Shown piece by piece: positions 1 through 11,851 of a stretch of DNA of 11,851 bases (its first letter is position 1; each line of letters starts with the position of its first letter). The position numbers and the translations under genes are program-made. Source of the DNA: Bacteroidales bacterium UBA3663 (GTDB lineage Bacteria; Bacteroidota; Bacteroidia; Bacteroidales; UBA3663). The stretch covers positions 1-11,851 of the forward strand of contig DFJU01000001.1 in assembly GCA_002373755.1 (NCBI GenBank), read 5' to 3'. The notes below the pieces were generated by a model. It ran no database searches and was not told the DNA's origin. It saw only the letters and a program-made list of their open reading frames with translations.

Positions 1-55
1 ACCAAGGACCCCCACCATGTCAAGGTGATACTCTAACCAACTGAGCTATGCTGAC
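1..55 (-). tRNA. tRNA-Val (anticodon GAC), partial at left edge
   Basis: The reverse complement of 55-1 folds as the 5' part of a tRNA: acceptor strand GTCAGCA, then TA, a D-arm (GCTC...GAGT) and an anticodon stem TCACC/GGTGG. The 7-nt loop TTGACAT gives anticodon GAC, which reads valine codons GUC/GUU. The T-arm starts at the edge of the window and the 3' acceptor strand lies outside it. It sits just downstream of tRNA-Leu in the same orientation, but a terminator-like hairpin separates the two. Confidence 0.9.
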
Positions 56-58
56 TCT

Positions 59-95
59 AAAAAAAGAGCTCCAAAATCAGCAAATTTTAGAGCCC
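59..95 (-). terminator. Terminator-like hairpin between tRNA-Leu and tRNA-Val
   Basis: Read on the minus strand, 95-85 (GGGCTCTAAAA) pairs with 76-66 (TTTTGGAGCTC) over 11 bp including two G-U pairs. The loop is 8 nt and seven Ts follow at 65-59. This has the form of an intrinsic terminator. It would end the tRNA-Leu transcript just before tRNA-Val, unless it is a partial terminator or a processing signal. I saw no separate consensus promoter for tRNA-Val in the 41-nt spacer. Confidence 0.65.
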
Positions 96-96
96 T

Positions 97-181
97 TGGT
101 GCCCGAGGCGGGACTCGAACCCGCAAGGCATGCACCATACGCACCTGAAACGTACGCGTCTACCAATTTCGCCACCCGGGC
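97..181 (-). tRNA. tRNA-Leu (anticodon CAG)
   Basis: The minus strand from 181 to 97 folds as a complete 85-nt class II tRNA. The acceptor GCCCGGG pairs with CTCGGGC, the discriminator is A, and CCA is encoded. The anticodon stem TACGT/GCGTA closes the loop TTCAGGT, giving anticodon CAG (leucine, CUG). The long variable arm and the T-arm (GCGGG TTCGAGT CCCGC) are intact. It is the first gene behind the promoter at 274-305. Confidence 0.95.
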
Positions 182-426
182 GCTTTTGTCAGACTAACAA
201 CGCGACAGCGTTGCTGTCCGGCGTTTCAGCTTTTGCAGACTTGAAAAACGATTGCCTTTCTCATTTGCGGGTGCAAAGATAGTCGTTTGGATTCTGGTTT
301 CCAAATTTTGAATCCATTTTTTTTGTCCGATACCTTGTTTTTTATGGATTGTCCGATGCGAAACGGTCGAATTGTCGTCTGGAGTGGCCAAAAAGCGAAA
401 AAGTCGTGTAGCATCGACAAAAAAAA
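182..426. other. Intergenic region upstream of the tRNA unit
   Basis: No gene is supported here. The region holds the tRNA leader (182-273) and promoter (274-305). Upstream of the promoter the 9-mer TTGTCCGAT occurs twice, at 323-331 and 349-357, with a 26-bp period. A 7-bp inverted repeat, AATCCAT (311-317) and ATGGATT (344-350), overlaps this region. An open frame on the plus strand covering part of the region runs antisense into the DUF4625 gene and looks spurious. Confidence 0.6.
274..305 (-). promoter_or_regulatory. Bacteroidetes-type promoter for the tRNA unit
   Basis: On the minus strand there is TTTG (305-302), a 20-nt spacer, then TATCTTTG (281-274). This matches the known Bacteroidetes housekeeping consensus TTTG-N19-21-TAnnTTTG exactly. 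The expected start of transcription is several bases downstream of 274, leaving a leader of roughly 85 nt before tRNA-Leu at 181. Confidence 0.85.
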
Positions 427-451
427 GAGGCTGCACAGAACGTGCAACCTC
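419..451 (-). terminator. Intrinsic terminator of the TonB/DUF4625 operon
   Basis: Read on the minus strand, GAGGTTGCAC and GTGCAGCCTC (451-427) form a 10-bp stem with one G-U pair and a 5-nt loop, followed by eight Ts (426-419). It starts 24 bp after the stop codon at 476 and closes the minus-strand cluster that begins at 4012. Confidence 0.9.
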
Positions 452-475
452 GATTGGTTTTTCTTGTGGCCGATT

Positions 476-946
476 TCACTCCGTAATGCGGATTGCGACG
501 GCTCTGAGCTGTTGCCATCCGGCGGCATCGGTCACGCGGATCATGAAGTGGTAGTCGCCCGTGTCGATGTCGTCGGGAATCTGGATGAACTGTTGCGCTA
601 CGTGATATTTCTGTCCCGCAGGAATCGCGTAGTCGTCGTTGAAGATCCATCCGTTTACGGCAGTTTTGTCGGCCTCGAATTCACACTCCACATCCGACGT
701 GCTGTGCGTGTGATGGTCGAAATTGTGGTGGATTTCGATGTTGTAGTTGCCGAGTTCCTCGTTGTCGATGAGTGCAAAGCAGACGGCAATCTCGTCGCCG
801 CGCCGGAACGTCTGGCAGTCGTACGGACAGGCATCGATTCCGTTGTCGGTGATTGACGGCGCGGTCATGTCCTTGTTGTCGTCGTTCGACGAATCGCACG
901 CGCACAATAAGCTTGCGAAAATAATCGCTAAAATGCTGTGTTTCAT
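476..946 (-). CDS. DUF4625-type lipoprotein with His cluster
   Basis: This encodes a 156-residue exported lipoprotein. I chose the ATG at 946 over one 15 codons upstream because it gives a normal signal peptide (MKHSILAIIFASLLCAC) with the lipidated Cys at 17, followed by an Asp/Asn-rich spacer. The body is a beta-sandwich-like domain resembling DUF4625, with conserved-looking features GIDACPYDC (36-44), DNEELGNYNIEIHHNFDHHTH (in 61-81), a GDYHF strand and a VTDAAGW stretch near the C-terminus. The cluster HHNFDHHTH at 73-81, plus nearby Cys and Asp residues, suggests metal binding; this is inference. It lies 25 bp after a second DUF4625-like gene and is the last gene of the TonB receptor operon. 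The family has no established biochemical role that I know of. The family assignment is from memory of sequence pattern; the lipoprotein call is firm. Confidence 0.85.
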   Translation of the reverse strand: MKHSILAIIFASLLCACDSSNDDNKDMTAPSITDNGIDACPYDCQTFRRGDEIAVCFALIDNEELGNYNIEIHHNFDHHTHSTSDVECEFEADKTAVNGWIFNDDYAIPAGQKYHVAQQFIQIPDDIDTGDYHFMIRVTDAAGWQQLRAVAIRITE

Positions 947-971
947 ATTTGTTCGATGTTTTTTTTGTTGA

Positions 972-1403
972 TTATTCTTCCGATGCCACAATGTTCACAT
1001 CGCTTTCGACGGTGGTCTGCTGTCCGGCCTTGTCGGTCACGGTGAAATGCAGGTGATATTCGCCGGCAGGAGCGTCGGCCGGAATGTCGATGTGCTCGTG
1101 GAATTCGGTGTTGCGCACGCCGATGTATTTGCCGTCGGTGTAGCTTAGCTCGATTTCGTAGTCGCCGCCCTCCTCCAAGTGGATTTCGATGTCGATACGG
1201 GCGATGAGACCTTCGGCTACGATGTCGGCCTCAAGGTGCATGTCGTCGCCGGCTGTGGCGGTCTTGCTGTTTTCGTGTCCGACTTCGGTGAGCGTGATGA
1301 CGGGCTTTGCGGTGCTGTCGTCATCTTTGTCGCAGGCTACGAATCCGAGTGAAAGAACTGAAATGAAAAACAATGCAATGATTTGATATTTAATTGATTT
1401 CAT
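972..1403 (-). CDS. DUF4625-type lipoprotein, second copy
   Basis: This encodes 143 residues with a signal peptide and lipobox FVAC (lipid-bearing Cys24), followed by an acidic spacer DKDDDST. The mature part resembles DUF4625: EVGHENSKTATAGDDMHLEADI (residues 40-61), an IEIHLEE strand near 72-78, FHEHIDIP (101-108) and EYHLHFTVTDKAGQQTTVE (115-133). His residues recur in pairs on predicted strands (102/104, 117/119), which could make a metal site; that is inference. The copy at 476-946 shares the GxYHxxxxVTDxAGxQ region, so the two look like diverged paralogs. It starts 21 bp after the TonB receptor gene and is probably co-transcribed with it. The protein should be lipid-anchored in the periplasm or at the outer membrane, where it could pass ligand to or from the receptor. 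Confidence 0.85.
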   Translation of the reverse strand: MKSIKYQIIALFFISVLSLGFVACDKDDDSTAKPVITLTEVGHENSKTATAGDDMHLEADIVAEGLIARIDIEIHLEEGGDYEIELSYTDGKYIGVRNTEFHEHIDIPADAPAGEYHLHFTVTDKAGQQTTVESDVNIVASEE

Positions 1404-1424
1404 AGTTTTTTTTGTTTTGTGTTG

Positions 1425-3512
1425 TTAAAATTCCAGACCGACCAGCAGCGAGAAGTTGCGTCCGGGTTCGGGCACATCAATCAGGCGGTAGTAGCTGGTG
1501 TGGTCGTAGTAGCGTCGGTTGAGCAGGTTGTCTGCGTGAAACGCCACTTTTAAAGTTGTTTTGCCCAACGGCATTTCCTTGTTGGCCGATGCGCCAAGCG
1601 TCCAATGTCCGTCGGTCGGCTTTTCTGGTGGCACAATCTCGTCTTGTGTTCCAACGACACGAATGTTCAGTCCGATGCTGTTCGTCCCTCTCCACTCAAA
1701 TCCGTATTCGCCGCCGATGTTCATCGACCACGGCACAGAAAATGGCAGCGTGTAGCCCTTCTTGTCGCCCGACAGCTGCTCGGAGTAGAGGTAGTCGGCC
1801 GCGAAATCGGCTTTCCAATGTTCTGTGATACGGAAATCGGCCTGTGCTTCAAATCCGTAGCGTAGCACCTCAGCCTGTGTGTATTGGTAGAGCTGCAAGC
1901 CCTCCACGTAGCGCGATGTCGGGTTCAGATAGATGTAGTTCGGGAAGTAGTTGACGAATGGATTTATATGGACGGAAAACATCGGCCGTGTCAATGCGAC
2001 ACAAAGGTCGAGCTGGTACGAGCGTTCGGGGTCGAGGCCGATGTTGCCCTGCTCGTAGCGGAAGATGTGGTAGTTGATGCCGTCTGCGCCAAGCTCTTTC
2101 GGGATTGGCACGCGGAAACTTTTGCCCACATTGGCCTTGAAGAGCCAGTCGCCGCTCGCGTAGTTCATGCCGACGGCCCACGTCACGCTGTGGAAGTTGC
2201 GCGATGTAGCCTCCGAACGCTGTTTGAAGACCGAATCGTCGGCCGAAACCGGAGTCTTGAACCAGTCGCTGTAGCTGCCGATTTGCGTACGGTTGAAGTC
2301 GTAGCGCAGTCCGGCATTCACGGCAAGGTTGCCGGTCAACGACCATCGGTCGAAAGCGTATGTGCCGATGCTGAACGTTTCGAAATCGGGGATGATGAAG
2401 CCCCATCCGCTGCGTCGGTTGCGTTGCCACTCGCTGTTGATGCCGATACGCAACTCGTTGTCGTCCAACGTGAAGCGCGCGCCGGCATTGGCCGTCCATG
2501 TGCTCTTGTTGAAGCGTCGCTCCAGGGTGCCGTCGGGCGTCGGCATGTAGCCGTGTGCGATGGGTTCGGAGTGTTCTTCGCGGAGGTTGTTCTGGTAGGC
2601 GAGGTTCACGTCGGCCACGAAGCCGGACTTGTGCCACGCGAGGTGTGAGAGCACCTTCAGGTGGTTTACGCTCTGCCGTGGCAGGTCGATGTCGCGTGCC
2701 GAACGGTCGTAGTTGATGTCGGACAAGCGCACTTCGAGGCCGTGTGCGTTGGCGAAAAATCCGCTGGCGGCGTAGTTGTCGCTCACGCGCAGGTCGGCGT
2801 GGAAATTGTAGCCCGCGTAGCCCAGCATCACCCCGCCGTTGCGTTCGCGTCCGGCCGTGTTGCGTAGCCGTCGGTCATGCAGCCGTATATAATAGGAGTA
2901 ATACTGGATGCTGTCGGTCGGGACCTTGGCATCGGCATAGTCGATGTGGGTGTAGTTGAGGCGGTAGAAGAAGCGTCCGTGGCGTCCCTGAACCTTGGCC
3001 GATGCGCCGAGCTGGTCGTTGACGGAGCGTCCGACGAGGCGGACCGAACCCTCGAACTCGCGTAGCGGCACGTGGTTGGTGAAGAGGTTGATGACGCCGC
3101 CGATGGCATCGCTGCCGTAGAGCAGAGCCGCCGGTCCCTTGACCACTTCGGCGCGGTCGATGGCAAACTGATCAACCTCAAGTCCGTGGTCTTCACCCCA
3201 TTGCTGCCCATCGTGCTTGATGCCGTCTTCGGTCACGGCCACGCGGTTGAAGGCCATTCCGCGAATCATCGGTTTCGACTGTCCGGAGCCGATGGTCATC
3301 GCCTTGACACCAGGAATCCCTTCGAGCGTCTGCATCAGACTGCCGCCTGCATTGCGGTCGATGAAGTTGCGGTCAACCTGTTCGACCGACTGCGAAGTGC
3401 GCATCTGCCGGTCGCGCCAGGCGTTGCCCGTCACCGAAACGTCGTGCAGGGTGTGTACGCTGTCGATTGCCGCACTCGCGCAGAGCGTTGCGGCCAAAAA
3501 TATTTGAAGCAT
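1425..3512 (-). CDS. TonB-dependent outer-membrane receptor
   Basis: This encodes 695 residues. A signal peptide (MLQIFLAATLCASAA) with no basic residue near its start is followed by a TonB-box-like segment HDVSVTG (23-29). A plug domain spans about 40-147 and includes TLEGIPGVK, IRGMAFNRVAVTEDGIKHD, RAEVVKGPAALLYGSDAIGG and VINLF. The rest is a 22-strand-type barrel ending in LVGLEF with the usual terminal Phe. An in-frame stop seven codons upstream fixes the start at 3512. It lacks the N-terminal carboxypeptidase-like domain of SusC proteins, and no SusD is present, so a glycan substrate is unlikely. Its size and simple architecture resemble metal, siderophore, heme or ZnuD-type receptors. 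The neighbours, a His/Cys-rich exported protein upstream and two His-rich DUF4625 lipoproteins downstream, point to a metal ion. The exact substrate cannot be read from the sequence. Confidence 0.95.
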   Translation of the reverse strand: MLQIFLAATLCASAAIDSVHTLHDVSVTGNAWRDRQMRTSQSVEQVDRNFIDRNAGGSLMQTLEGIPGVKAMTIGSGQSKPMIRGMAFNRVAVTEDGIKHDGQQWGEDHGLEVDQFAIDRAEVVKGPAALLYGSDAIGGVINLFTNHVPLREFEGSVRLVGRSVNDQLGASAKVQGRHGRFFYRLNYTHIDYADAKVPTDSIQYYSYYIRLHDRRLRNTAGRERNGGVMLGYAGYNFHADLRVSDNYAASGFFANAHGLEVRLSDINYDRSARDIDLPRQSVNHLKVLSHLAWHKSGFVADVNLAYQNNLREEHSEPIAHGYMPTPDGTLERRFNKSTWTANAGARFTLDDNELRIGINSEWQRNRRSGWGFIIPDFETFSIGTYAFDRWSLTGNLAVNAGLRYDFNRTQIGSYSDWFKTPVSADDSVFKQRSEATSRNFHSVTWAVGMNYASGDWLFKANVGKSFRVPIPKELGADGINYHIFRYEQGNIGLDPERSYQLDLCVALTRPMFSVHINPFVNYFPNYIYLNPTSRYVEGLQLYQYTQAEVLRYGFEAQADFRITEHWKADFAADYLYSEQLSGDKKGYTLPFSVPWSMNIGGEYGFEWRGTNSIGLNIRVVGTQDEIVPPEKPTDGHWTLGASANKEMPLGKTTLKVAFHADNLLNRRYYDHTSYYRLIDVPEPGRNFSLLVGLEF

Positions 3513-3661
3513 GAAAAATCGTGTCGGTTTTCAACGTCGCACAGAGTCAAATCGGACTTGAATGCCACGGAACGAATGTCTGAAACTCGTTCGATGGGTC
3601 AAATCCGCGTAGTCCGCGTCGCTGAAAAATGAAAAAAGTGGAAAAATGCCGTTGGGCGAGA
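3513..3661 (-). promoter_or_regulatory. 149-bp leader between small protein and TonB receptor
   Basis: No consensus -33/-7 promoter is visible on the minus strand here, so I expect read-through from the gene at 3662-4012. The gap holds GTCAAATC twice (3546-3553, 3598-3605) and a 6-bp inverted repeat, GAACGA (3570-3575) and TCGTTC (3587-3592). These could fold in the mRNA or bind a regulator. Nothing here is a strong terminator. Confidence 0.35.
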
Positions 3662-4012
3662 TTATGCCATAACCGACACGGAAGGGGGCGCACGAAGCCC
3701 CACGATGCCGCACACTTCCGAACGTACACCGCTCTGAATGTGGGCTGGGAGGTTTTTGTCAGTGTCTTGGTCGATGAGGATTGCGGCCGATGCTTCAGCC
3801 GACAGGTAAGGCAGGGTGAGGAACTGGCAGAGCAGACATTCGTGCGTCTGGTGCGAGTTCTGGCCGAGGTGGCCGCCGCAATGCTGGTGGTCGCACGCGA
3901 TGCTGTGTTCGTCGGAATCGCCGTAGTGGTGCACGTGGACAGACGCGACGAGAAGCATCGGCAAGAATACCGACAGCAGAATCCATGATGCGTATTTCCT
4001 GAGTGTGCTCAT
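3662..4012 (-). CDS. His/Cys-rich small exported protein of a metal-uptake locus
   Basis: This encodes 116 residues. The ATG at 4012 was chosen over upstream in-frame codons because it gives a clean signal/anchor segment (STLRKYASWILLSVFLPMLLVAS, residues 2-24). Immediately after follows VHVHH (25-29), then a His/Cys-rich stretch with CDHQHC (40-45), H48, H54, H57 and the pair C59-LL-C62. In total there are ten His and five Cys residues. A second hydrophobic stretch (about 63-81) and a C-terminal LRAPP motif (106-110) follow. This layout resembles short unnamed proteins placed before metal-type TonB receptors, and loosely DUF2946. A role in metal sensing, buffering or delivery in the envelope is inference. 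It is the first gene of the operon, 149 bp ahead of the receptor. Confidence 0.8.
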   Translation of the reverse strand: MSTLRKYASWILLSVFLPMLLVASVHVHHYGDSDEHSIACDHQHCGGHLGQNSHQTHECLLCQFLTLPYLSAEASAAILIDQDTDKNLPAHIQSGVRSEVCGIVGLRAPPSVSVMA

Positions 4013-4071
4013 TGCGGTGGTTTGTTGTGTCGGCGATGACGTCCGACTTAGGCGCGCGAAGATAGCGAAAT

Positions 4072-4130
4072 TTCCGCGAATTCTGTGATGCGTTGGACAA
4101 ATAATTTTTTTTCCGTACATTTGCGCGGAA
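4072..4130. promoter_or_regulatory. Inverted repeat bracketing the nitroreductase promoter
   Basis: The 7-bp arms TTCCGCG (4072-4078) and CGCGGAA (4124-4130) are exact inverted copies. They flank the promoter at 4092-4123, the second arm directly abutting the -7 element. The site lies in the divergent gap between the metal operon and the nitroreductase gene, so a regulator bound here could act on either side. The arms are short and chance cannot be excluded. Confidence 0.3.
4092..4123 (+). promoter_or_regulatory. Bacteroidetes-type promoter for the nitroreductase unit
   Basis: GTTG (4092-4095), a 20-nt spacer, then TACATTTG (4116-4123) match the Bacteroidetes consensus, with only the first base of the -33 element differing. 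The implied leader to the ATG at 4200 is about 70 nt and A/T-rich, with no Shine-Dalgarno sequence, as is usual in this phylum. Confidence 0.8.
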
Positions 4131-4199
4131 TTATTGGAGAAAAAGAACGTGAACACTTGAACACAATTTATAACCATTAACCATTTAATAATCACAAAT

Positions 4200-4832
4200 A
4201 TGAAAAAGAAATTTTTTACCCTCGCAGCACTTTCGCTGTGCATGACGCTGGCTGTGGCCCAAACCATCAATTTGCCGGCTCCGAACAAGTCGAAAAAGAC
4301 CGCCACCGTGATGGAGGCACTCGCTACGCGACATTCCGAGCGCGCTTTTTCGCCACAGAAGCTCACCGATCAGGAACTCAGCGACCTGCTTTGGGCTGCT
4401 TGCGGCAAGAACCGTGAGGACGGCAAACTGACTGCGCCGACGGCAATGAACCGTCAGGAAATCCGCGTGTTCGTGTTTACCGACAGCAAGGTCTCGGAAT
4501 ATCTGCCGCAGACCAACCAGCTGCGTCAGGTGGCTACGGGCGACCATCGCGGCATCGTTGCCGGCCGTCAGGAATTTGCAAAGTCGGCGCCCGTATCGCT
4601 CGTGATTGTGGCCGACATGGACAAGTTCAAGAGCAACGACCAACGTGCGCAGACGATGGTCAGCGTCGATGCGGGAATCGTCTGCCAGAACATCAACATC
4701 TATTGCGAGGCCGTCGGACTCGTGACTGTGCCACGCGCCACAATGGATCATGACGCCATCCGTAAATTGCTGGGCCTCAACGAGAACCAGATTCCGCTAC
4801 TCAACAATCCGGTGGGCTACAAGGCCAAGTGA
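4200..4832 (+). CDS. Secreted nitroreductase-family protein
   Basis: This encodes 210 residues. The signal peptide MKKKFFTLAALSLCMTLAVA precedes Gln21, implying a periplasmic enzyme. The mature part is a short flavin nitroreductase-like fold: RHSERAF (44-50) near the N-terminus, the usual Arg-Ser region contacting FMN phosphate; APTAMNRQEI (79-88); AKSAPVSLVIVAD (117-129); VDAGIVCQNINIYCEAVGL (156-174), the helix seen in this family; and a C-terminal NNPVGY. Family members are FMN-dependent oxidoreductases that reduce nitro compounds, quinones or unknown substrates with NAD(P)H. An exported form has no obvious access to cytoplasmic NAD(P)H, so its physiological donor is unclear. It is transcribed divergently from the metal operon and overlaps or abuts the DUF1653 gene downstream. 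Confidence 0.9.
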   Translation: MKKKFFTLAALSLCMTLAVAQTINLPAPNKSKKTATVMEALATRHSERAFSPQKLTDQELSDLLWAACGKNREDGKLTAPTAMNRQEIRVFVFTDSKVSEYLPQTNQLRQVATGDHRGIVAGRQEFAKSAPVSLVIVADMDKFKSNDQRAQTMVSVDAGIVCQNINIYCEAVGLVTVPRATMDHDAIRKLLGLNENQIPLLNNPVGYKAK

Positions 4833-4834
4833 TC

Positions 4835-5041
4835 ATGGCAGAAATCTATCGACACTACAAGGGCAACCGCTACGAACTGCTTGGCGAATGTCTGCATTCC
4901 GAGACGCTTGAAGAGATGATCATCTACCGCGCGCTCTACGGCGAAGGGAAGGTCTGGGTGCGTCCGAAAAAGATGTTTTTCGAGTCGGTTACGTTGGCCG
5001 ACGGCACGGTCGTCCCGCGATTTGAAAAGGTGGCGGAGTGA
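4835..5041 (+). CDS. DUF1653 domain protein
   Basis: This encodes a 68-residue cytoplasmic protein from the ATG at 4835 (MAEIYRHYKGNRYELLGE). A GTG at 4829 in the same frame would overlap the preceding TGA by four bases and add only two residues. I prefer the ATG because DUF1653 proteins usually begin just before the YRHYKG motif. It carries the family hallmarks: YRHYKGNRYELLG, HSETLEE, YRALYGEGKVWVRP and MFFE. The function of DUF1653 is not known to me. It is translationally close to the nitroreductase gene and is followed by a strong terminator, so the two form an operon. Confidence 0.92.
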   Translation: MAEIYRHYKGNRYELLGECLHSETLEEMIIYRALYGEGKVWVRPKKMFFESVTLADGTVVPRFEKVAE

Positions 5042-5047
5042 ATGAAG

Positions 5048-5083
5048 AAAGGTCGGTTTCCGAGTGCGGAGGCCGACCTTTTT
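5048..5083 (+). terminator. Strong intrinsic terminator after the DUF1653 gene
   Basis: A 15-bp stem (5048-5062 with 5067-5081, two G-U pairs) with loop AGTG ends in a run of Ts (5079-5083). It starts 7 bases after the stop codon. The A-run on the left arm is short, so it works best in the plus direction. Confidence 0.92.
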
Positions 5084-5180
5084 CGCAGGTTGTTTTGGGC
5101 GAAATATTGCAGCCTGTCATTTGTCACGACTGTCATTAAGAAAACTGCTTTATCGGTCATGTCCGATGCGCACTACGCGA

Positions 5181-5212
5181 ATAATACCCTAATAGTAGGC
5201 TGATAATACCCT
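5181..5212. repeat. Direct repeat ATAATACCCT, two copies
   Basis: Exact 10-bp copies lie at 5181-5190 and 5203-5212, 22 bp apart (about two helical turns). The flanks share TACGCG (5174-5179 and 5216-5221). No function is assigned. Confidence 0.5.
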
Positions 5213-5324
5213 CGCTACGCGGATTTTTGCCGTTTTTGAAAGGTGTTTAAATGCTGTTTGAACGAAGGATTTTCTCCATCAGTTGAAATAAATTGAAATC
5301 AGTTTTTTGTGGTGCCATCTGCCC

Positions 5325-5352
5325 GTAGAGACGTGCCATGGCGCGTCTCTAC
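5325..5352. repeat. 28-bp interspersed palindrome, copy 1
   Basis: The arms GTAGAGACG and CGTCTCTAC surround the core TGCCATGGCG, which is palindromic except for one T-G wobble. It is preceded by CCC and followed by A. The same arms occur at 5573-5600 and, with two changed bases, at 9912-9939. It would form a 12-13-bp hairpin in RNA and resembles REP-type intergenic repeats. Confidence 0.9.
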
Positions 5353-5572
5353 ACAATTCCCAAAAACATGACGAAAGCCTTTGTTTGAAATTTTCAATTT
5401 TCCGAAGGCTCTACGAACCTCCTATGAACGACTGCGGTGCGCGCTCTTGATTGTTCATGCGGAAAAACCGGTGCGAGTGACAGCGTTACAGCGTGACAGC
5501 AGATTTTTGCAGTGGGTGTGCGCCTTTTACGCAATTATATGGCAACGATGCCCCGCTTTTCAAATGTAGCCC

Positions 5573-5600
5573 GTAGAGACGATGTGCACATCGTCTCTAC
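5573..5600. repeat. 28-bp interspersed palindrome, copy 2 (perfect)
   Basis: The arms GTAGAGACG and CGTCTCTAC are identical to copy 1, but the core is ATGTGCACAT, so the whole 28 bp is a perfect palindrome. It is preceded by CCC and followed by A, as in copy 1. The unrelated but still self-complementary core suggests that hairpin structure, not core sequence, is kept. Confidence 0.92.
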
Positions 5601-5836
5601 ATTTCCTGCAAAAAATGCAGAAATATTTGCGTTATTTCCCCAGACTTGTTGTATATTCGCGACGAAAATCTTGTTCAACCTGAAATCTATACATTCAAAA
5701 CCGAGATTCATGGGAAATCAAATGTTTCACACAGACATTTGCGATGAGTTGATGGCCGACATCAGCACCAGCCCAATGCCCAAAATTGCGTGTCCATAGA
5801 ACCTCCAATTCGGTAAATTTTCAATTTTATCTCGTT

Positions 5837-6478
5837 ATGAAACACTTTATTCTTATAATATTTTTGTGTGGCTTTATATCTGCATATGGAAAAACATTAA
5901 AATCCCGGGATGTCGATAGCGTCTGTATTGCCTGCGACAATTTTAGTGCTACATATATACTTAGGATAACAAGGCTTCAGTTATGTGAACGTTTTTACGA
6001 AGAGGTTCATCCGGAACCATATATATGCCCTCCTCCACCGAGTGATTCTCTGTTCAAGGCACTTACAGGCGTAGAATATTCATTGGTGGAGGATGGTAAC
6101 AATATCGAATATGTAGATAGCATAGAAGAGGAGGCTTCCACAATCTCTTTTCATGTCATAAAAGATCGGGATTCCATTGATTCTTTAGTTAAGTTGTTAG
6201 ACCATTGCAAGAAGGTTAAGAAATTGAAAGTATCAGCGGATCAATTACTGCTGACGGGGTCTTTCTGGTGGAGGAATAAGAGATTGTATTTGTTTGATAA
6301 TACGTTTGATAACAGAATATTATGCGTTTTTTATTGTAAAGAGAAGCAGAGATGGGCTTGGTTTGACACTGGAAGATATTTTGATTGGGGCTGGTACAGG
6401 TACGAAGTAAGTGATGAATTGAAAGCTTTCCTTAGAAAATATACGACTTTGTTTGGTGTATATGAATATGATAAGTAA
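5837..6478 (+). CDS. AT-rich exported protein of unknown function
   Basis: This encodes 213 residues from the ATG at 5837. I prefer it over one 17 codons upstream because it opens a signal peptide (MKHFILIIFLCGFISAYG). I do not recognise the family. Visible features are a VCIACDNF segment just after the signal, PYICPPPPSDSLF near the first third, an acidic stretch DSIEEEAS, a Lys-rich KKVKKLKV, and an aromatic C-terminal third with FWWRNKRLYLFD and WAWFDTGRYFDWGWYRYEV. Sampled 60-base blocks have about 33% GC, against about 60% in the GH115 gene, which points to a separate origin. It lies directly before an RHS-repeat remnant (stop 6478), so an orphan immunity or effector-linked role is possible but unproven. 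The mature protein should be periplasmic or surface-exposed. Confidence 0.75.
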   Translation: MKHFILIIFLCGFISAYGKTLKSRDVDSVCIACDNFSATYILRITRLQLCERFYEEVHPEPYICPPPPSDSLFKALTGVEYSLVEDGNNIEYVDSIEEEASTISFHVIKDRDSIDSLVKLLDHCKKVKKLKVSADQLLLTGSFWWRNKRLYLFDNTFDNRILCVFYCKEKQRWAWFDTGRYFDWGWYRYEVSDELKAFLRKYTTLFGVYEYDK

Positions 6479-6657
6479 CTTGATTTACAATGATTTCGGC
6501 CATGACGTGGAAAGTCGCATCCAACGGAAGGCTGCGGCGGTTCGACTACGAATACGACGGCATGAACCGACAGACAAGTGCGGAGCACGGATACTTTGGC
6601 CTTGTGGAAACAGGCAACATGGAATCAAGTGTAGAATTGGAAAATTATGGCAATTAA
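6478..6657 (+). pseudogene. RHS/YD-repeat protein fragment
   Basis: The frame from the ATG at 6490 reads MISAMTWKVASNGRLRRF, then DYEYDGMNRQTSAEHGY, and ends at TAA 6655-6657 after 55 codons. ISAMTWK followed by a basic segment and YEYDGMNRxTSA is the hallmark of Bacteroidales RHS (YD-repeat) proteins, normally more than 1000 residues long. Just upstream in another frame, NLIYN (about 6474-6491) matches the residues that usually precede GNISAMTWK. This implies a deletion of about five bases at 6491-6493 that broke the frame. The tail after EHGYFGL does not continue the RHS pattern. This is a remnant of a larger polymorphic-toxin-type gene, or the anchor of a lost cassette. It is too short to act as an RHS protein. 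Confidence 0.75.
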
Positions 6658-6707
6658 GAATAGACATAAGATGAAATTATTACATGAATTTTCACATAGA
6701 AAAATCG

Positions 6708-6746
6708 CACAAAAAAGGCCGCCTTTCGTGAGCGGCTTTTTTTGTG
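6708..6746. terminator. Bidirectional intrinsic terminator
   Basis: The arms 6708-6722 and 6732-6746 pair over 15 bp with one G-T, around a 9-nt loop: CAC, six As, GGCCGC on the left; GCGGC, seven Ts, GTG on the right. A GC core with A/T outer arms makes a terminator in both directions. It serves the convergent plus-strand island and the minus-strand GH115 gene, whose stop is at 6754. Confidence 0.92.
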
Positions 6747-6753
6747 TGAAGCG

Positions 6754-9153
6754 TCATTTTTTGCGCGACAGCATCCATTGGTCAACCACTATATGGTCGT
6801 CGATGGCGCGGATGGTGAGTGTGTGCGTACCGGCCTGGAGGTGAACCTGCTGCGTGCGGACAGCCTGGCCGCGTAGCACGTTCAGTTTCCATTGTTCCGA
6901 GCGGAACGGCTCCTTGAGCGAGAATGTCTCGGGCGTGCCGTCGTCGATGCTGACGCTGTAGCGCAGGTCGCCGTTGTCGTTCGGCTGGGTCGGGATGAGC
7001 ATCGTCCGAATCTCGTAGTTGCCCTCGCGAGCCACGTCGAAGCGGTAGGTCAGAGCACCATCTTTCGGCAGGGCGACGGCCAGCATCGAGTGGCCGAGCA
7101 TCTGGACTGGTTGAGCTCCGTCGGTGGCCGATGCGAAGTCGCAGGCGTTGGTTATCAGTGTGTTGCTGAGTGTAAGCGGAGTGTCGGCCGATGCCGATTC
7201 TGTAGCGGTCGATGCGGCAGCTGCGTCGGTCGTGGCCGATGGCAGGAGAGGAGCCCAATAGACGGGCAGATCGCGCGGATGGTCGTTCATTAGGCCATGC
7301 CACTTGCCGCCGGCCAGCTGGTTGTTGTAGCGGTCGGTGAGGCTGCGGATTCGGCCGTAGGCGGCTTGGCTTCGGGCAACGGATTCGCGTAGCAGGCTGT
7401 CGGTGGCGGCGGCTGCGATGTGGTTGGCGCGGCCGTTGGCCAACTTGCGTGCGCGTTGAGCCTCAAACATCTTTTCGGCTTGGGCGGCAGCGGCCTGCAC
7501 AGGGTATTGGATCGTGGCGAAATAGGCATCGGACAAGGCCGGACGGACATTGCGGCCGATGTTTTCCACCTCGCGGCTCAGGGCGAGGAATCGGCCCTCG
7601 AACCAGTCGCACTGCTCTTGCGGCCAGTCGCTGTTGCGCACGGGCGACAGGCCACGGTCGTAGAGCCGTTTGTCCAGTTCCGTCTGGTTCCAGCCCATGA
7701 ATTCGGGTCGGCGCATCGCACACAGCCGGTAGTATTCGTGCATCACGGGGAAGAGGCGTTGGCCGACGTCGTTGCCGAACTCGCGGCAAAGCCAGCGGCG
7801 GTAGTGGTCGTTGAGCGTTGCGGCCGATGTGCAGTCGATGTCCCACGCGAGGTCGAGGAAGAGTTCGAGGTCGTAGCCGGCGGCTTTCGGGTCGTGCACG
7901 TTGGCAATCCAGAGGCGGCGCACGTTGTGGTCGTAGGCGGCGCGCATCTCGTTGTAGATGAGGCCTGGCTGCGTCGTGGTGAGCCACAGGTAGTCGTGCG
8001 GGCGGCCCCAGTAGGAGAGGTGGTAGTAGATGCCGCCGCCGCCGCTGCGCCGTTGTTCATCGGGCGTGGAGAGACGCGTGATGTAGCCGTAGTTGTCGTC
8101 GCACCACATCAAAGTCACGTAGTCGGGCACGCGAAGGCCGTTTTCGTAGAGCTGGAGCACCTCCTTGTAGGGCACGAACACCTGCATCAGCCGTGAGGGG
8201 TCGCCCACGTTGTCGCGTAGCAGCCGTTGTTGGTCGTCGATGACCTGTTGCAGTCCTTCGCGCTTCTCGTCGGCCGACTTGAAGCCCTCCATCGAGCCGT
8301 CGTGTATGCCACGCATTCCGATGGTGAACATGTTGCCGCCGGAGTGGGCGACTTCGCGCAGGCGTTCTGTCCAATACTGCTGCACGGCCTCGCGGTTGGT
8401 CTTGTAGTTGAAGTTGCCGCGTCGGGCGACGTCCCATTCGCCCACGTTGTTGCGCAACATCGGTTCGCAGTGCGATGTGCCGATGACGATGCCGCACGAA
8501 TCGGCCACGGCTTTTGCTCCGGGCAGCTGGAAGAATGCGGTCGTGCCTTCGTGCATCGCCGGCCAGATGGCGTTGGCGCGCAGGCGGAGCAGCAGCTGGA
8601 AGATGCGTTTGTAGGTCTGGACGCCGATCTGCAGCTTCGTGCTTGGTTCGTAGGTCGTTGAGCTCCATGGCCGTAGCGACCAGTCTTCGTCGTTGATGAA
8701 GATGCCGCGATAGGCCACGCTGGGCTGCTGTTCGGTGCGGAAATCATCGGCCATGACGAGCTTGTCGCGGTGTTCGGGCACGACGTCGCCCCACCAGATC
8801 CACGGCGAGACTCCGGCCATGCGCGAGAGTTCGAGCAGTCCGTATGCCATGCCGCGCGCGTTGCCGCCTTCCACCAGAATCTGGTCGCCCTGAGTGGCGA
8901 TGCGGAAGCCGTCGGTGGCGAGCTTCTTGTTCTCAACTATGCGGATTTTTGCCTTGCCCGATGCCTTCGGGACGAGTCCGGTGACCTGTGTCATGTCGCT
9001 CTTCCACATTTCGAGCGCGACTTGCACGACGGGTTCGACCTTGCGCGGCACGCTGTAGGTGATGGGCGATTGTCCGTCGAACCAGACGACGTCGGCCGTG
9101 GCGAAAGTGCATTGTAGAGCGATGAGAGACGTCAGAAAAATGTTTTTTCTCAT
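6754..9153 (-). CDS. GH115 family alpha-glucuronidase
   Basis: This encodes 799 residues with a signal peptide (MRKNIFLTSLIALQCTFATA). Family GH115 enzymes remove (4-O-methyl-)glucuronic acid from xylan side chains, even at internal positions. Motifs are RGIFINDEDW (149-158), NAIWPAMHEGT (194-204), SHCEPMLRNN (227-236), TIGMRGIHDGSM (277-288), VPYKEV (327-332), MWCDDNYGYITR (349-360) and IYYHLSYWGRPHDYLW (375-390). The acidic residues in the HDG, YKE and WCDD motifs are the likely catalytic region. An Ala/Ser/Thr-rich linker (around residue 640) joins the C-terminal beta domain, which ends DHIVVDQWML, as in GH115 C-terminal domains. Length is normal for the family. It starts 30 bp after the ABC ATPase gene, so it may be transcribed from there. 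No SusC/SusD pair or other xylanase is in view. Confidence 0.93.
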   Translation of the reverse strand: MRKNIFLTSLIALQCTFATADVVWFDGQSPITYSVPRKVEPVVQVALEMWKSDMTQVTGLVPKASGKAKIRIVENKKLATDGFRIATQGDQILVEGGNARGMAYGLLELSRMAGVSPWIWWGDVVPEHRDKLVMADDFRTEQQPSVAYRGIFINDEDWSLRPWSSTTYEPSTKLQIGVQTYKRIFQLLLRLRANAIWPAMHEGTTAFFQLPGAKAVADSCGIVIGTSHCEPMLRNNVGEWDVARRGNFNYKTNREAVQQYWTERLREVAHSGGNMFTIGMRGIHDGSMEGFKSADEKREGLQQVIDDQQRLLRDNVGDPSRLMQVFVPYKEVLQLYENGLRVPDYVTLMWCDDNYGYITRLSTPDEQRRSGGGGIYYHLSYWGRPHDYLWLTTTQPGLIYNEMRAAYDHNVRRLWIANVHDPKAAGYDLELFLDLAWDIDCTSAATLNDHYRRWLCREFGNDVGQRLFPVMHEYYRLCAMRRPEFMGWNQTELDKRLYDRGLSPVRNSDWPQEQCDWFEGRFLALSREVENIGRNVRPALSDAYFATIQYPVQAAAAQAEKMFEAQRARKLANGRANHIAAAATDSLLRESVARSQAAYGRIRSLTDRYNNQLAGGKWHGLMNDHPRDLPVYWAPLLPSATTDAAAASTATESASADTPLTLSNTLITNACDFASATDGAQPVQMLGHSMLAVALPKDGALTYRFDVAREGNYEIRTMLIPTQPNDNGDLRYSVSIDDGTPETFSLKEPFRSEQWKLNVLRGQAVRTQQVHLQAGTHTLTIRAIDDHIVVDQWMLSRKK

Positions 9154-9183
9154 GGGTGTTTATGGGTTAGTGTTGTTCGATGA

Positions 9184-9846
9184 TTATCGGTTGTCGGTTG
9201 TCGAGAGGCGGCCGTCGGCGATGTGCCAAATAGTGTCGGCCGAGTGTCGGACAAGCTCCAGGTCGTGCGACGAGAGCAGTATCGCCTTGCCGCAGTCGTG
9301 GGCCAGATGGCGGAGCATTTCCATCAGTTCCAGCTTGCTTTCGTAGTCGAGGAAGGCCGATGGCTCGTCGAGCAGCAGGTAGTCGGTGCCTTGGGCCAGA
9401 GCGCGGGCAATCATCGTCTTCTGCCGTTCGCCGTCGCTAAGTTCGCCGATGCGCCGGTGTGCCAGATGTGCGATGCCGAGCGTCCGGATGGCATCGTCGG
9501 CCGCAGCCCAATCGGCCGCTGTGCGCCGTCCGAGCCATGTGGAGTAGGGCAATCGGCCATAGACGACCATTTCGCGCAGTGTTGTGTTGGGCAAATCGGG
9601 CACTTGGGTGAGCACAAGGCCGATGCGGCGGGCAAGTTCGGCCGGTGAAAAGTCGCGTAGCGGCCTGTTGTCAAGCTCGATTGTGCCGGCGATGGGCATC
9701 AGCAGTCCGGCCAAAGTGCGCAGCAGGGTCGATTTGCCGGTGCCGTTGCGCCCTGTGAGACACGCAAAAACGCCTGGCGTCAATTCTGCGTCGATGCCTG
9801 TCACGATGGCGCGGTTGTGGCCGATGCTTAAGTCCTGTAACTTCAT
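9184..9846 (-). CDS. ABC transporter ATPase, FecE/BtuD-like, orphan
   Basis: This encodes 220 residues with all core ABC motifs: Walker A GRNGTGKST (32-40), Q-loop Gln81, signature LSDGERQ (136-142), Walker B DYLLLDEP (155-162) with Glu161, and the H-loop His194 in SSHD. The pattern (PDLPNTTLREMVVYGRLPY and ALAQGTDYLLLDEPSAFLD) fits importers of iron-siderophores, heme or cobalamin. At 220 residues it is a little shorter than usual, lacking much C-terminal extension. No permease or periplasmic binding protein is in the window, so it must pair with a permease made elsewhere. The upstream neighbour is a nucleotidase with a 100-bp gap containing the third palindrome. No consensus promoter is seen in that gap. 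GH115 follows after 30 bp. Confidence 0.92.
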   Translation of the reverse strand: MKLQDLSIGHNRAIVTGIDAELTPGVFACLTGRNGTGKSTLLRTLAGLLMPIAGTIELDNRPLRDFSPAELARRIGLVLTQVPDLPNTTLREMVVYGRLPYSTWLGRRTAADWAAADDAIRTLGIAHLAHRRIGELSDGERQKTMIARALAQGTDYLLLDEPSAFLDYESKLELMEMLRHLAHDCGKAILLSSHDLELVRHSADTIWHIADGRLSTTDNR

Positions 9847-9911
9847 TGCGTTGGCGTGCGAAAAGAGTTGAGAAATAAGAAATAAGGGGGTGTCATCCCG
9901 TGCCTTTCACT

Positions 9912-9939
9912 CCAGAGACGTGCCATGGCGCGTCTCTAC
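9912..9939. repeat. 28-bp interspersed palindrome, copy 3
   Basis: The core TGCCATGGCG and the right arm CGTCTCTAC are identical to copy 1 at 5325-5352. The left arm begins CC instead of GT, so the outermost two pairs are lost. It lies in the 100-bp gap between the nucleotidase stop and the ABC ATPase start, so it may shape the 3' end of the upstream mRNA. Confidence 0.88.
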
Positions 9940-9946
9940 AATGCCC

Positions 9947-11695
9947 TTAATAATACGGTTGCTTGAGGATTTCCATGTCGCGTTCGCGCGCTACGCGATA
10001 CCAGTCTTCGGGCACGACCTTCCAGTTGCCGAGCAGATGCGGCGTGATGGGGCCGAAGGCTTGGATGTAGAGCTTCAGGTAACGGCGCATGTCGATTGGA
10101 GTGACGTCGATGGTGCGCGACTGGAGTTTTTCGCGGCTCCAGTGCAGGCCGAGCGGGACGAAGTTGCCTCCGCCCGAATACTGGTAGCTGTTGATGGCCA
10201 CGCGGTAGAGCTTTTCGGGGTTGATTGGAGAACCATCGGCCATGGAAATCAACCGCACGCGCGAACCAGGCGTCTTGCTCACATCGACCTCGTAGCGGAT
10301 TCCAGCGGCCGACGTGTAGTTGAAGGTGAAGCCGGAAAGTTTCAGTCCGCGAGCATTGTCGCCCGGCTCGAAGTTCATGATGTGGTCGTTGGGCGACTTC
10401 ATCGAGTTGAACTGCATGTTGTAGCCGTGTTCGAGGTATTGGCGCACCTCGTCGGCCGTCATTTGGATTGTGTAGAGCAGGTTCTCGTACTTGTAGATGG
10501 CGAAGAGGTCGCCCATGGTGATTGTGCCTGCGTGGATGACTTCGTTGGGCGACAGCACAGGGTGGAGCGAGATGTCGGCCTTGGTTGCCCAGAGCTGTGC
10601 CTCGTGGATGAAGTCCTCGAACGCTGAGGGTCCGATCAGCCCGTCGATGCCGACCAGGTCGGTCGTGATTTCGCCTACGGGACTTTCGACAAACCGCTTG
10701 ATCGAGTCTATGGCGTTCTGGAAGTGGGCGACGTAGGCCGTATCGACAGGGTAGTCGATTGTGTTGACGAGGCTGGTGCGTATCGTCTTGTCGTAGGTGC
10801 CGTCGATGCGCCGCGTGAAGTGGATGTCGGCGCGTCCGACGTGGTAGGCGTTCACTCCGGCGTCGATGAGCGGAACGGTGTCGCCCTTGGCATTGCGCAC
10901 TGTGGTCAGGCGGGTTTCGTGGTCATGTCCGATGAGGCACAGGTCGAACCCCGGCACCTTGACGATGGCTGGCACCGAGCCGTTCTCGTTGCAGCGCGAG
11001 TCGAAGTCGCGGCCGTTCTTCGAGAAGTCGTAGCCCGAGTGGAACAGCGCAATCAGCAGGTCGGGATTCTCCTTCTGGCGGATGACAGGCACCCATTTGC
11101 GGGCGCAGTCCACCATGTCGTCGAAGCGGAGGTTGGGCCACATCGTCTTCGGCAGCCAGTAGGGGATGTGGGGCGTGACCATGCCCAGCACTGCGATGCG
11201 CAGACCTTCGCGGTTGAGCACGACGTATGGCTGGAACATCGGCTGGCCGGTGCGTGTGTCGATGGCGTTGGCGCAGATCCACGGCATGTTGAACTCCGAC
11301 GGCAGACGTCGTTCGTAGAGCGCATCGCCCGGCTCGATGTCGTGGTTGCCCACTCCGATGGCGTCGTATTGCAGGTAGTTGTAGATGCGTGGCACGATGT
11401 GCGGGCTGACCGTATCGACGAAGTTGTGGTAGTAGAGCGACGGCTGTCCTTGCAGGAAGTCGCCCGTGTCGAGCAGGATGACCTTGCCCGGATTTTCGCT
11501 GCGCACTTTCTTGTAGTACGTGCTTGCATTGGCCAGGCTGGTCTTGTCGGGGCGAGCACGCTTGAAGTCATATCCCAAACATGCGCCATGCACGTCGGTG
11601 GTGTATAAAACAACCAAGTCGGCTTCTGCCGGCTTGGTATTGTTGCACGCAACCAATGCAAGTGCTGCGGCTGCTATGTAAAGATATTTCTTCAT
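9947..11695 (-). CDS. 5'-nucleotidase / 2',3'-cyclic phosphodiesterase lipoprotein (UshA/CpdB family)
   Basis: This encodes 582 residues. A lipoprotein signal peptide MKKYLYIAAAALALVAC has its lipidated Cys at 17. The N-terminal metallophosphoesterase domain carries the two-metal ligands: TTDVHG (Asp34, His36), LDTGDFLQG (Asp76), GNHD (116-119), FHSG (His219) and GHDHE (His257, His259). The C-terminal nucleotidase domain (about 330-560) holds GEITTDLVGIDG, TITMGDLFAIYKYEN and YRVAINSYQYSGGGNF, the last resembling the substrate-binding end of the family. The enzyme should act in the periplasm or on the outer membrane, releasing phosphate and nucleosides from nucleotides for salvage. It begins 9 bp after the mutase stop codon, so it is probably translated from the same mRNA. 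Which of the family's activities dominates cannot be told from sequence. Confidence 0.94.
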   Translation of the reverse strand: MKKYLYIAAAALALVACNNTKPAEADLVVLYTTDVHGACLGYDFKRARPDKTSLANASTYYKKVRSENPGKVILLDTGDFLQGQPSLYYHNFVDTVSPHIVPRIYNYLQYDAIGVGNHDIEPGDALYERRLPSEFNMPWICANAIDTRTGQPMFQPYVVLNREGLRIAVLGMVTPHIPYWLPKTMWPNLRFDDMVDCARKWVPVIRQKENPDLLIALFHSGYDFSKNGRDFDSRCNENGSVPAIVKVPGFDLCLIGHDHETRLTTVRNAKGDTVPLIDAGVNAYHVGRADIHFTRRIDGTYDKTIRTSLVNTIDYPVDTAYVAHFQNAIDSIKRFVESPVGEITTDLVGIDGLIGPSAFEDFIHEAQLWATKADISLHPVLSPNEVIHAGTITMGDLFAIYKYENLLYTIQMTADEVRQYLEHGYNMQFNSMKSPNDHIMNFEPGDNARGLKLSGFTFNYTSAAGIRYEVDVSKTPGSRVRLISMADGSPINPEKLYRVAINSYQYSGGGNFVPLGLHWSREKLQSRTIDVTPIDMRRYLKLYIQAFGPITPHLLGNWKVVPEDWYRVARERDMEILKQPYY

Positions 11696-11704
11696 TCTGT
11701 CGTG

Positions 11705-11851
11705 TTAAAGGAATTTCTTGACCTCGTTCATCACGGCGTCGGCTGTCTTCTGGGCCTCCTCTTCGGTCGCTGCCTCGGCATAGACGCGGATGATCGGTTC
11801 GGTGTTCGACTTGCGCAGGTGGACCCAGCGGTCGGGGAAGTCGATCTTCAC
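11705..11851 (-). CDS. Phosphoglucosamine/phosphomannomutase, C-terminal end (partial)
   Basis: The last 48 codons of a gene run in from the right edge. The visible part, KIDFPDRWVHLRKSNTEPIIRVYAEA followed by an acidic helix and VKKFL, is the C-terminal domain of alpha-D-phosphohexomutases. The RKSNTEP motif (RxSNTEP) binds the sugar phosphate. In Bacteroidetes such genes are mostly annotated as phosphoglucosamine mutase (GlmM, UDP-GlcNAc synthesis) or phosphomannomutase. The fragment cannot separate these, so no symbol is given. The start and active-site serine loop are outside the window. Confidence 0.93.
   Translation of the reverse strand: MKIDFPDRWVHLRKSNTEPIIRVYAEAATEEEAQKTADAVMNEVKKFL

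Follow-up and report, generated by a model that had tools for sequence, protein, structure and literature searches.

A putative zinc-uptake operon of Bacteroidota with a ZnuD-like receptor, DUF4625 lipoproteins and a predicted arrest-peptide leader

Described relatives and operon layout

In Bacteroidota, surface lipoproteins such as HmuY and XusB are paired with TonB receptors and act on a metal or a metal complex. A TonB receptor gene can also follow a small leader, as reported for CruR of B. pertussis, in which a CXXC motif and a RAPP motif placed three residues from the end are 45 residues apart, a 162-bp gap precedes the receptor gene and Rho termination has been proposed (PMC9426467). CruR is reported to arrest at RAPP in vitro, and RAPP upstream ORFs before TonB receptors are described as universal in Gram-negative bacteria (PMC12992588). 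The available part of another source presents CutF-like proteins as common in Bacteroidota and gives CutF a sign opposite to that of CruR (PMC9973294). For zinc, the Zur regulon of P. aeruginosa is described as including ZnuD, PA4063-4066, COG0523 and FolE2 (PMC4542158).

The operon studied here resembles CruR-BfrG (CrtA), as far as that system is described in the text available, in its small exported leader with a CxxC and a C-terminal RAPP motif (44 residues apart here, 45 there), in the gap that follows (149 versus 162 bp) and in the TonB receptor that comes next. It differs in that copper and PepSY_TM belong to the B. pertussis system, whereas here DUF4625 genes lie downstream and the leader falls below the DUF2946 cut-off; relatives of the operon also add a Zur-type box and a regulator. 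With HmuY and XusB it shares the combination of lipoprotein and receptor, but the protein families differ and the metal probably does too. On its gene content, its conserved linkage and motifs and the box found in relatives, the operon is probably a Bacteroidota zinc-uptake unit made of DUF4625 lipoproteins, a ZnuD-like receptor and a regulatory leader. The initial annotation had called it a candidate metal-acquisition operon, and a metal-uptake module is indeed supported, with the metal narrowed to zinc and the role of the first gene read anew.

The window, that is, the whole stretch of 11,851 nucleotides analysed (1-11851), is part of a 26,635-base contig in a draft genome of 2.84 Mb that is about 70% complete. 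Its best-matching named contig belongs to RUG12447, a Bacteroidales MAG (receptor identity 73%). The four co-oriented genes and single closing terminator previously noted are all present on the minus strand, the genes lying between 476 and 4012 in the order small ORF, TonB receptor and two DUF4625 genes, with gaps of 149, 21 and 25 bp. From this orientation and spacing we infer a single operon, and the same gene set was found again in many genera. The features are as follows.

4057..4064, minus strand: TATCTTCG, about 45 bp before the leader, presumed promoter element (sequence; inference)
3662..4012, minus strand: leader ORF, 116 aa, predicted metal-sensing arrest peptide (translation; alignment of 15 members)
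3671..3680, minus strand: post-RAPP nucleotides, 10/10 pairing with 3520-3529, attenuator-like, tentative (shuffle test)
3520..3529, minus strand: pairs with the post-RAPP nucleotides; its end is 7 nt upstream of the receptor ATG (shuffle test)
3513..3661, minus strand: leader-receptor gap, 149 nt, strongly structured RNA (folding z −4.0 and −4.1)
1425..3512, minus strand: ZnuD-like TonB-dependent receptor, 695 aa (domain scan, PDB match, conserved residues)
972..1403, minus strand: DUF4625 lipoprotein b (87.6 bits; lipobox C24, then DKDDD)
476..946, minus strand: DUF4625 lipoprotein a (136 bits; lipobox C17; predicted beta-sandwich)
427..451, minus strand: intrinsic terminator (hairpin scan)

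The element at 4057..4064 resembles the Bacteroidota -7 element; a generic sigma-70 promoter scan gave no clear excess (3 versus 2.1 in shuffles). The terminator is an 11-pair hairpin (451-427) followed by TTTTTTTT. The hairpin scan as a whole returned 5 terminator-like sites versus 6.0 in shuffles; this hairpin has the longest stem of the scan together with a U-run, and sits after the last stop codon. A divergent nitroreductase-family gene (4200-4832) lies upstream of the operon and a tRNA-Leu (97-181) downstream. About 5 kb upstream, beyond plus-strand genes, is a gene for a FecE-like, siderophore-type ABC ATPase (9184-9846, minus strand). The earlier statement that the window holds no inner-membrane transporter has to be amended for this ATPase gene, which stands alone, with no recognised permease beside it; inspection of the remaining contig by eye showed no permease. 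Two further genes of the window are a 220-aa ORF that matches no Pfam or NCBIfam family and whose N-terminus is hydrophobic (5816-6478, plus strand) and a GH115-family gene (6754-9153, minus strand, 409 bits).

The leader and its RNA

Among its 116 residues the leader has 10 His and 5 Cys. A hydrophobic N-terminal segment is followed by H26, H54, C59xxC62 and, 44 residues beyond the CxxC, RAPP at 107-110, after which six residues remain. Across 15 aligned leaders M1, H26, C59, C62, R107, P109 and P110 alone are invariant, and H54 is nearly so. A rule that asks for a CxxC, an [RK]xPP within 14 residues of the end and a spacing of 26-74 matched the upstream ORF in 24 of the 66 loci with intact upstream DNA (L005, L108 and L146, truncated upstream, were left out of the leader tables). 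The spacings found were 43-51, and no other ORF in a 983-ORF set from these loci matched, 20 others having a C-terminal [RK]xPP alone. Bacteroidales loci carry the leader in 22 of 28 cases, all with RAPP and a spacing of 42-44, L208 and L209 having a further CxxC at 40. The RxPP of the leaders lies 1-8 residues from the end, and the gene stands directly before the receptor or, in L074-L076, before DUF4625 genes. Pfam DUF2946 scores the window leader at 18.5 bits (E 0.0036), below its cut-off of 23.7 bits, and matches 0/10 other leaders at E≤0.1; at E≤1, 3/15 match.

What is the function of this first gene? Its His/Cys-rich product had been taken for a metal-binding protein. A CxxC and a RAPP about 45 residues apart, in a gene that is first in its operon and 149 bp before a putative metal-transport gene, are features of the CruR/CutF type, and it is most likely a regulatory arrest-peptide leader and not a structural metal-binding protein or chaperone. 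A stable periplasmic or membrane metal chaperone could also have the hydrophobic N-terminus, the His and Cys residues and the shared orientation seen here, and PA4063 of P. aeruginosa is described as a His-rich, Zur-regulated putative periplasmic protein (PMC4542158). We nevertheless consider a chaperone unlikely: few positions are invariant, and the RxPP near the end, its nearly fixed distance from the CxxC and the place before a receptor or DUF4625 gene form the pattern of RAPP arrest peptides.

As an arrest peptide, the nascent leader would sense metal through its CxxC/His site, and its C-terminal RAPP would stall the ribosome. When metal is scarce the stall would persist and receptor and lipoproteins would be made; bound metal would relieve the stall and expression would fall, either by RNA refolding over the receptor start or, alternatively, by Rho termination of the kind proposed for CruR. 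The gap between leader and receptor folds with an MFE of −59.5 (z −4.0 and −4.1), but strong folding is not uniform: across 22 of 24 leader loci the gaps gave z values from 0.0 to −9.8, those of L112 and L160 being too short to fold. The lowest value was seen in L075 (G025), where a very stable RNA lies between the leader and the next gene, in this case DUF4625. In the window, none of 300 shuffles paired as well as 3671-3680 with 3520-3529. Since this pairing brings post-RAPP nucleotides near the receptor ATG, stalling of the ribosome at RAPP could leave the start accessible. Pairing was significant (p≤0.05) in 8 of 43 leader loci, namely the window, L208, L209 and five others, not including the close relative L003; L074-L076 were left out of the test. 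Because significance was confined to these 8 loci, a conserved attenuator was not upheld and we keep the pairing as tentative.

We also considered the leader as a zinc-specific mark and rejected it. Of the 22 neighbouring receptor loci of the phylum sample, which have no DUF4625, 8 likewise begin with a leader (RGPP in five, RAPP in three); thus, the leader alone does not prove zinc. RGPP leaders precede receptors with an E-H plug motif, with no DUF4625 or box, in L047-L049, L059 and L067, and these loci may represent a sister system that serves a different metal. In L195 there is a second leader-like His/Cys ORF (G021:C11, 4213-4598) with a box 43 bp upstream, and same-strand ABC-ATPase-like and large TonB-receptor-like genes follow it, as judged by eye.

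Receptor and DUF4625 lipoproteins

The receptor has Plug (76 bits) and barrel (107.9 bits) domains. In agreement with the initial annotation, it lacks a SusD partner, no SusD domain being present in the ten window proteins scanned, and the domain scan gave no CarboxypepD match. ZnuD (NF038289) was the best of 26 NCBIfam families (149.4 bits, far under the cut-off of 950), and ZnuD 4rdr was the best match in a PDB search (1.7e-21; next 6e-11). The zinc ligand in the ZnuD plug appears as Asp99 in the accessible part of one source (PMC6288298) and is printed as D90 in that of another (PMC4557270); a count along the ZnuD chain supports Asp99. In a HMMER alignment, D108 and H109 of the receptor face D99 and H100 of ZnuD. 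Across the 69-locus receptor set described below, the Asp is kept in 68 and the His in all 69 receptors, and H284, E313 and H320 of the receptor are conserved, at most candidate counterparts of the ZnuD barrel zinc ligands E340 and H499. At ZnuD H499 the alignment, whose overall similarity is weak, has Asn, with a His two residues further. The 22 neighbouring receptors have E-H at the plug position in 20 cases and no box in upstream DNA up to about 1.2 kb. The receptor is thus like ZnuD of Neisseria in being its best PDB match, in its plug Asp-His and in the Zur-type control of relatives; it differs in its low overall similarity and in the DUF4625 and leader genes that accompany it.

Both DUF4625 proteins pass the PF15418 gathering cut-off of 27 bits. 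In protein a, the lipobox Cys (C17) opens the stretch C-DSSNDD, and a conserved IHHNFDHHTH motif and H133 follow; the lipobox Cys, H73, D77, H79, H81 and H133 are kept in 34-40 of 40 sequences. In protein b, where the lipobox gives C-DKDDD, H56, H102 and H104 are kept in 28-31 of 35. Counting DUF4625 proteins alone, 71 of 74 have a recognisable lipobox Cys, and in 65 of these 71 at least two of the next six residues are D or E. An acidic stretch after the lipobox Cys is described as a surface-export signal of Bacteroidota (PMC6222051). Both proteins of the window have this Cys and signal, and DUF4625 proteins probably sit at the cell surface, anchored by the lipobox Cys.

The proposal that DUF4625 proteins are metal-binding partners of the receptor is borne out as far as lipoproteins with conserved His/Asp residues and export-like N-termini are concerned. 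They may bind zinc or a zinc complex through the conserved His/Asp and hand the zinc to the ZnuD-like receptor, which would pass it to the periplasm. Another ligand, such as a peptide or a glycan, with metal at most structural, is also conceivable. The model of protein a is an all-beta sandwich (pLDDT 86) of a generic kind: Foldseek returned generic beta-sandwiches only (top E 7.5e-5; query TM ≤0.53 among the matches listed), with a carbohydrate-binding module among these weak matches and no metal-binding fold, and its sequence found nothing significant in the PDB (best E 0.085). The conserved His/Asp cluster argues against such a ligand, as does the G182 genome, in which DUF4625 stands beside the receptor and again behind a box-preceded carbonic-anhydrase gene (L202), and we regard it as improbable. 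No paper on DUF4625 or PF15418 was found in a literature search, and metal binding is here proposed as its function.

The linkage of DUF4625 with this receptor type, which the annotation had put forward as a check, proved to be conserved. In a phylum sample of 198 genomes, the window's own included, DUF4625 scored above cut-off in 10 genomes (27 domain hits), and 23 of the 27 hits adjoin such a receptor. At E<1e-100 there are 9 receptor places, again with our own, and all 9 have DUF4625 alongside; among 49 weaker places (E 1e-70 to 3e-41; up to five candidates scored per genome) none has DUF4625 within 30 kb. We further gathered 69 loci by receptor similarity: 8 from genome contigs, 8 from the phylum, 49 from the class and 3 from the genus, plus the window. 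The counts carry no phylogenetic correction; L158 (same contig as L003) was left out, as were L077 and L078 (no receptor) from receptor counts. DUF4625 lies within 6 kb in 49 of the 69. The other 20 have receptors of ≤39% identity, except L010 and L157, where the sequence ends right after the receptor. A sample of 393 Bacteroidales genomes gave 40 receptor places at E≤1e-150, spread over 39 genomes, and DUF4625 lies within 1.5 kb in 27 of the 28 new loci examined. The window's family is represented by 15 incomplete drafts of one genus, our own among them, and the receptor is present in 5.

An upstream box and the choice of metal

An inverted-repeat search in the upstream DNA of relatives returned the palindrome TGCAAC-N3-GTTGCA. 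When the 350 bp ahead of the operon start and the 250 bp ahead of the receptor were searched and one mismatch was allowed, this box was present in 42 of 69 loci, against 6 of 297 (250 bp) or 6 of 281 (620 bp) control upstreams from the same loci; some of the box-bearing controls are probably regulon genes themselves. Across whole genomes, the forward pattern matched 2-9 times in each of 8 genomes and the reversed pattern 0-1 times. In the regions read (20 and L073), the box precedes genes for Fur-family, MerC, MerC-folE, CobW GTPase, LolD/FtsE-type ABC ATPase and pyridine-nucleotide oxidoreductase proteins. In G182 it stands before an LCIB-type carbonic anhydrase gene, and the gene for another DUF4625 protein comes next on that strand. 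Family scans back the names for Fur (L073), MerC/folE/CobW (L071), ABC ATPase (L198), carbonic anhydrase (L202) and oxidoreductase (L196, L073); a GTPase behind the box in L201 is ZigA-like (554.6 bits, cut-off 600), and clustering or inspection by eye gave the remaining names. For some sites the gene that follows has no obvious connection with metals. Because the box also stands before Fur-family, MerC-folE, ZigA-like and carbonic-anhydrase genes, we consider these genes a Zur-type regulon, and the palindrome a candidate Zur operator for Bacteroidota. As far as the P. aeruginosa Zur regulon is described in the text available, the likeness extends to a receptor, LolD-type ABC, CobW/ZigA, GTP cyclohydrolase and carbonic anhydrase genes behind one palindrome; the reported proteobacterial box, GTTA-N5-TAAC (PMC4176598), differs from ours, and MerC and DUF4625 are extra here. 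A text search of a 2018 Zur review returned neither 'bacteroid' nor 'flavobacter'.

A Zur-type repressor may control the operon in many relatives, and in Bacteroidales it is often encoded in the operon. There, each of the 13 box loci has a Fur-family ORF that starts at the box or immediately behind it (in L215 its longest reading begins before the box), with the leader between this ORF and the receptor in 9 of the 13. NCBIfam gives these Fur-family genes no confident name, and we infer that they are Zur-type from their context. In the first set, 7 loci have both leader and box, 17 the leader only, 35 the box only and 7 neither (Fisher p 1.7e-5); mutual exclusion as a general rule was rejected, both being present in 9 of 28 Bacteroidales loci. 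The expectation of Zur/Fur-type sites thus holds for relatives but not for the window's own promoter, which has no recognisable box (best site 4 mismatches); its genus relatives L003, L159 and L160 likewise have none upstream. The genus seems to have neither Fur-family gene nor box at this operon. Two Fur-family genes lie elsewhere in the window's genome, and one of them, on C80, resembles those carried by the operons of relatives (E 3.6e-30).

Is the metal zinc? This missing box in the window and its genus relatives speaks against it, as does the fact that the characterised leaders we found of this type sense copper. A Fur-family gene of G021 lies, by reading, beside Nramp- and DtxR-like genes, which could suggest manganese. 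The main rival is copper, the metal for which this type of leader is known: the leader would sense copper as CruR does, and the receptor would be a copper transporter of the CrtA/OprC type. The anatomy of cruR-bfrG/crtA, a CxxC and RAPP leader, a gap of about 150 nt and a TonB receptor, is shared (PMC9426467), CxxC is a known copper motif and TIGR01778, a model of copper receptors, gives a weak match (57 bits). Against copper, the box of relatives is common to ZigA-like, folE, MerC and carbonic-anhydrase genes, and ZnuD is the best structural match with its Asp-His kept, whereas the plug ligand-site residue of CrtA is given as Tyr130 (PMC12914433). In addition, copper-related RAPP upstream ORFs are reported to be missing from Bacteroidota (PMC12992588). 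We therefore think copper import improbable. Iron, siderophore or heme uptake is more doubtful still, for although models of heme and siderophore receptors score 106-116 bits and the gene for a FecE-like ATPase is found about 5 kb upstream, these scores are all far below cut-off and both the make-up of the Zur-type regulon and the ZnuD-like Asp-His argue otherwise.

Beyond zinc uptake itself, we raise as a tentative possibility that the operon is a self-contained zinc switch across Bacteroidota, its fullest form having a Zur-type repressor, a zinc-sensing leader, a ZnuD-like receptor and zinc-binding DUF4625, and the window's genus the leader alone. If so, zinc would be sensed twice, by a cytoplasmic repressor and by a nascent exported chain, and the switch would include a zinc-sensing RAPP arrest peptide and give DUF4625 a function; zinc competition of these bacteria would become directly testable. 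Zinc uptake may then be a further role of the RAPP leaders that precede TonB receptors, for which CruR is the characterised copper case. Taken singly, the parts belong to known kinds, the RAPP leader class included; the tie of that class to Zur, zinc and DUF4625 was not found in our literature searches, by which the operator, the role given to DUF4625 and the combination of parts seem to be new.

Box matches also occur elsewhere in the window's genome. An exact box on contig C118 (L188, at 2313) stands 157 bp before genes for a CarboxypepD-containing TonB receptor and a DUF4249 lipoprotein (2470-5533), which are thereby a further candidate pair of receptor and lipoprotein in this regulon. On C66 (L189), a box with one mismatch (at 1298) lies 250 bp before a gene for an SO_0444-type Cu/Zn efflux permease with an HMA domain (1548-2846). 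Two further matches, on C104 and C114, have no evident metal gene.
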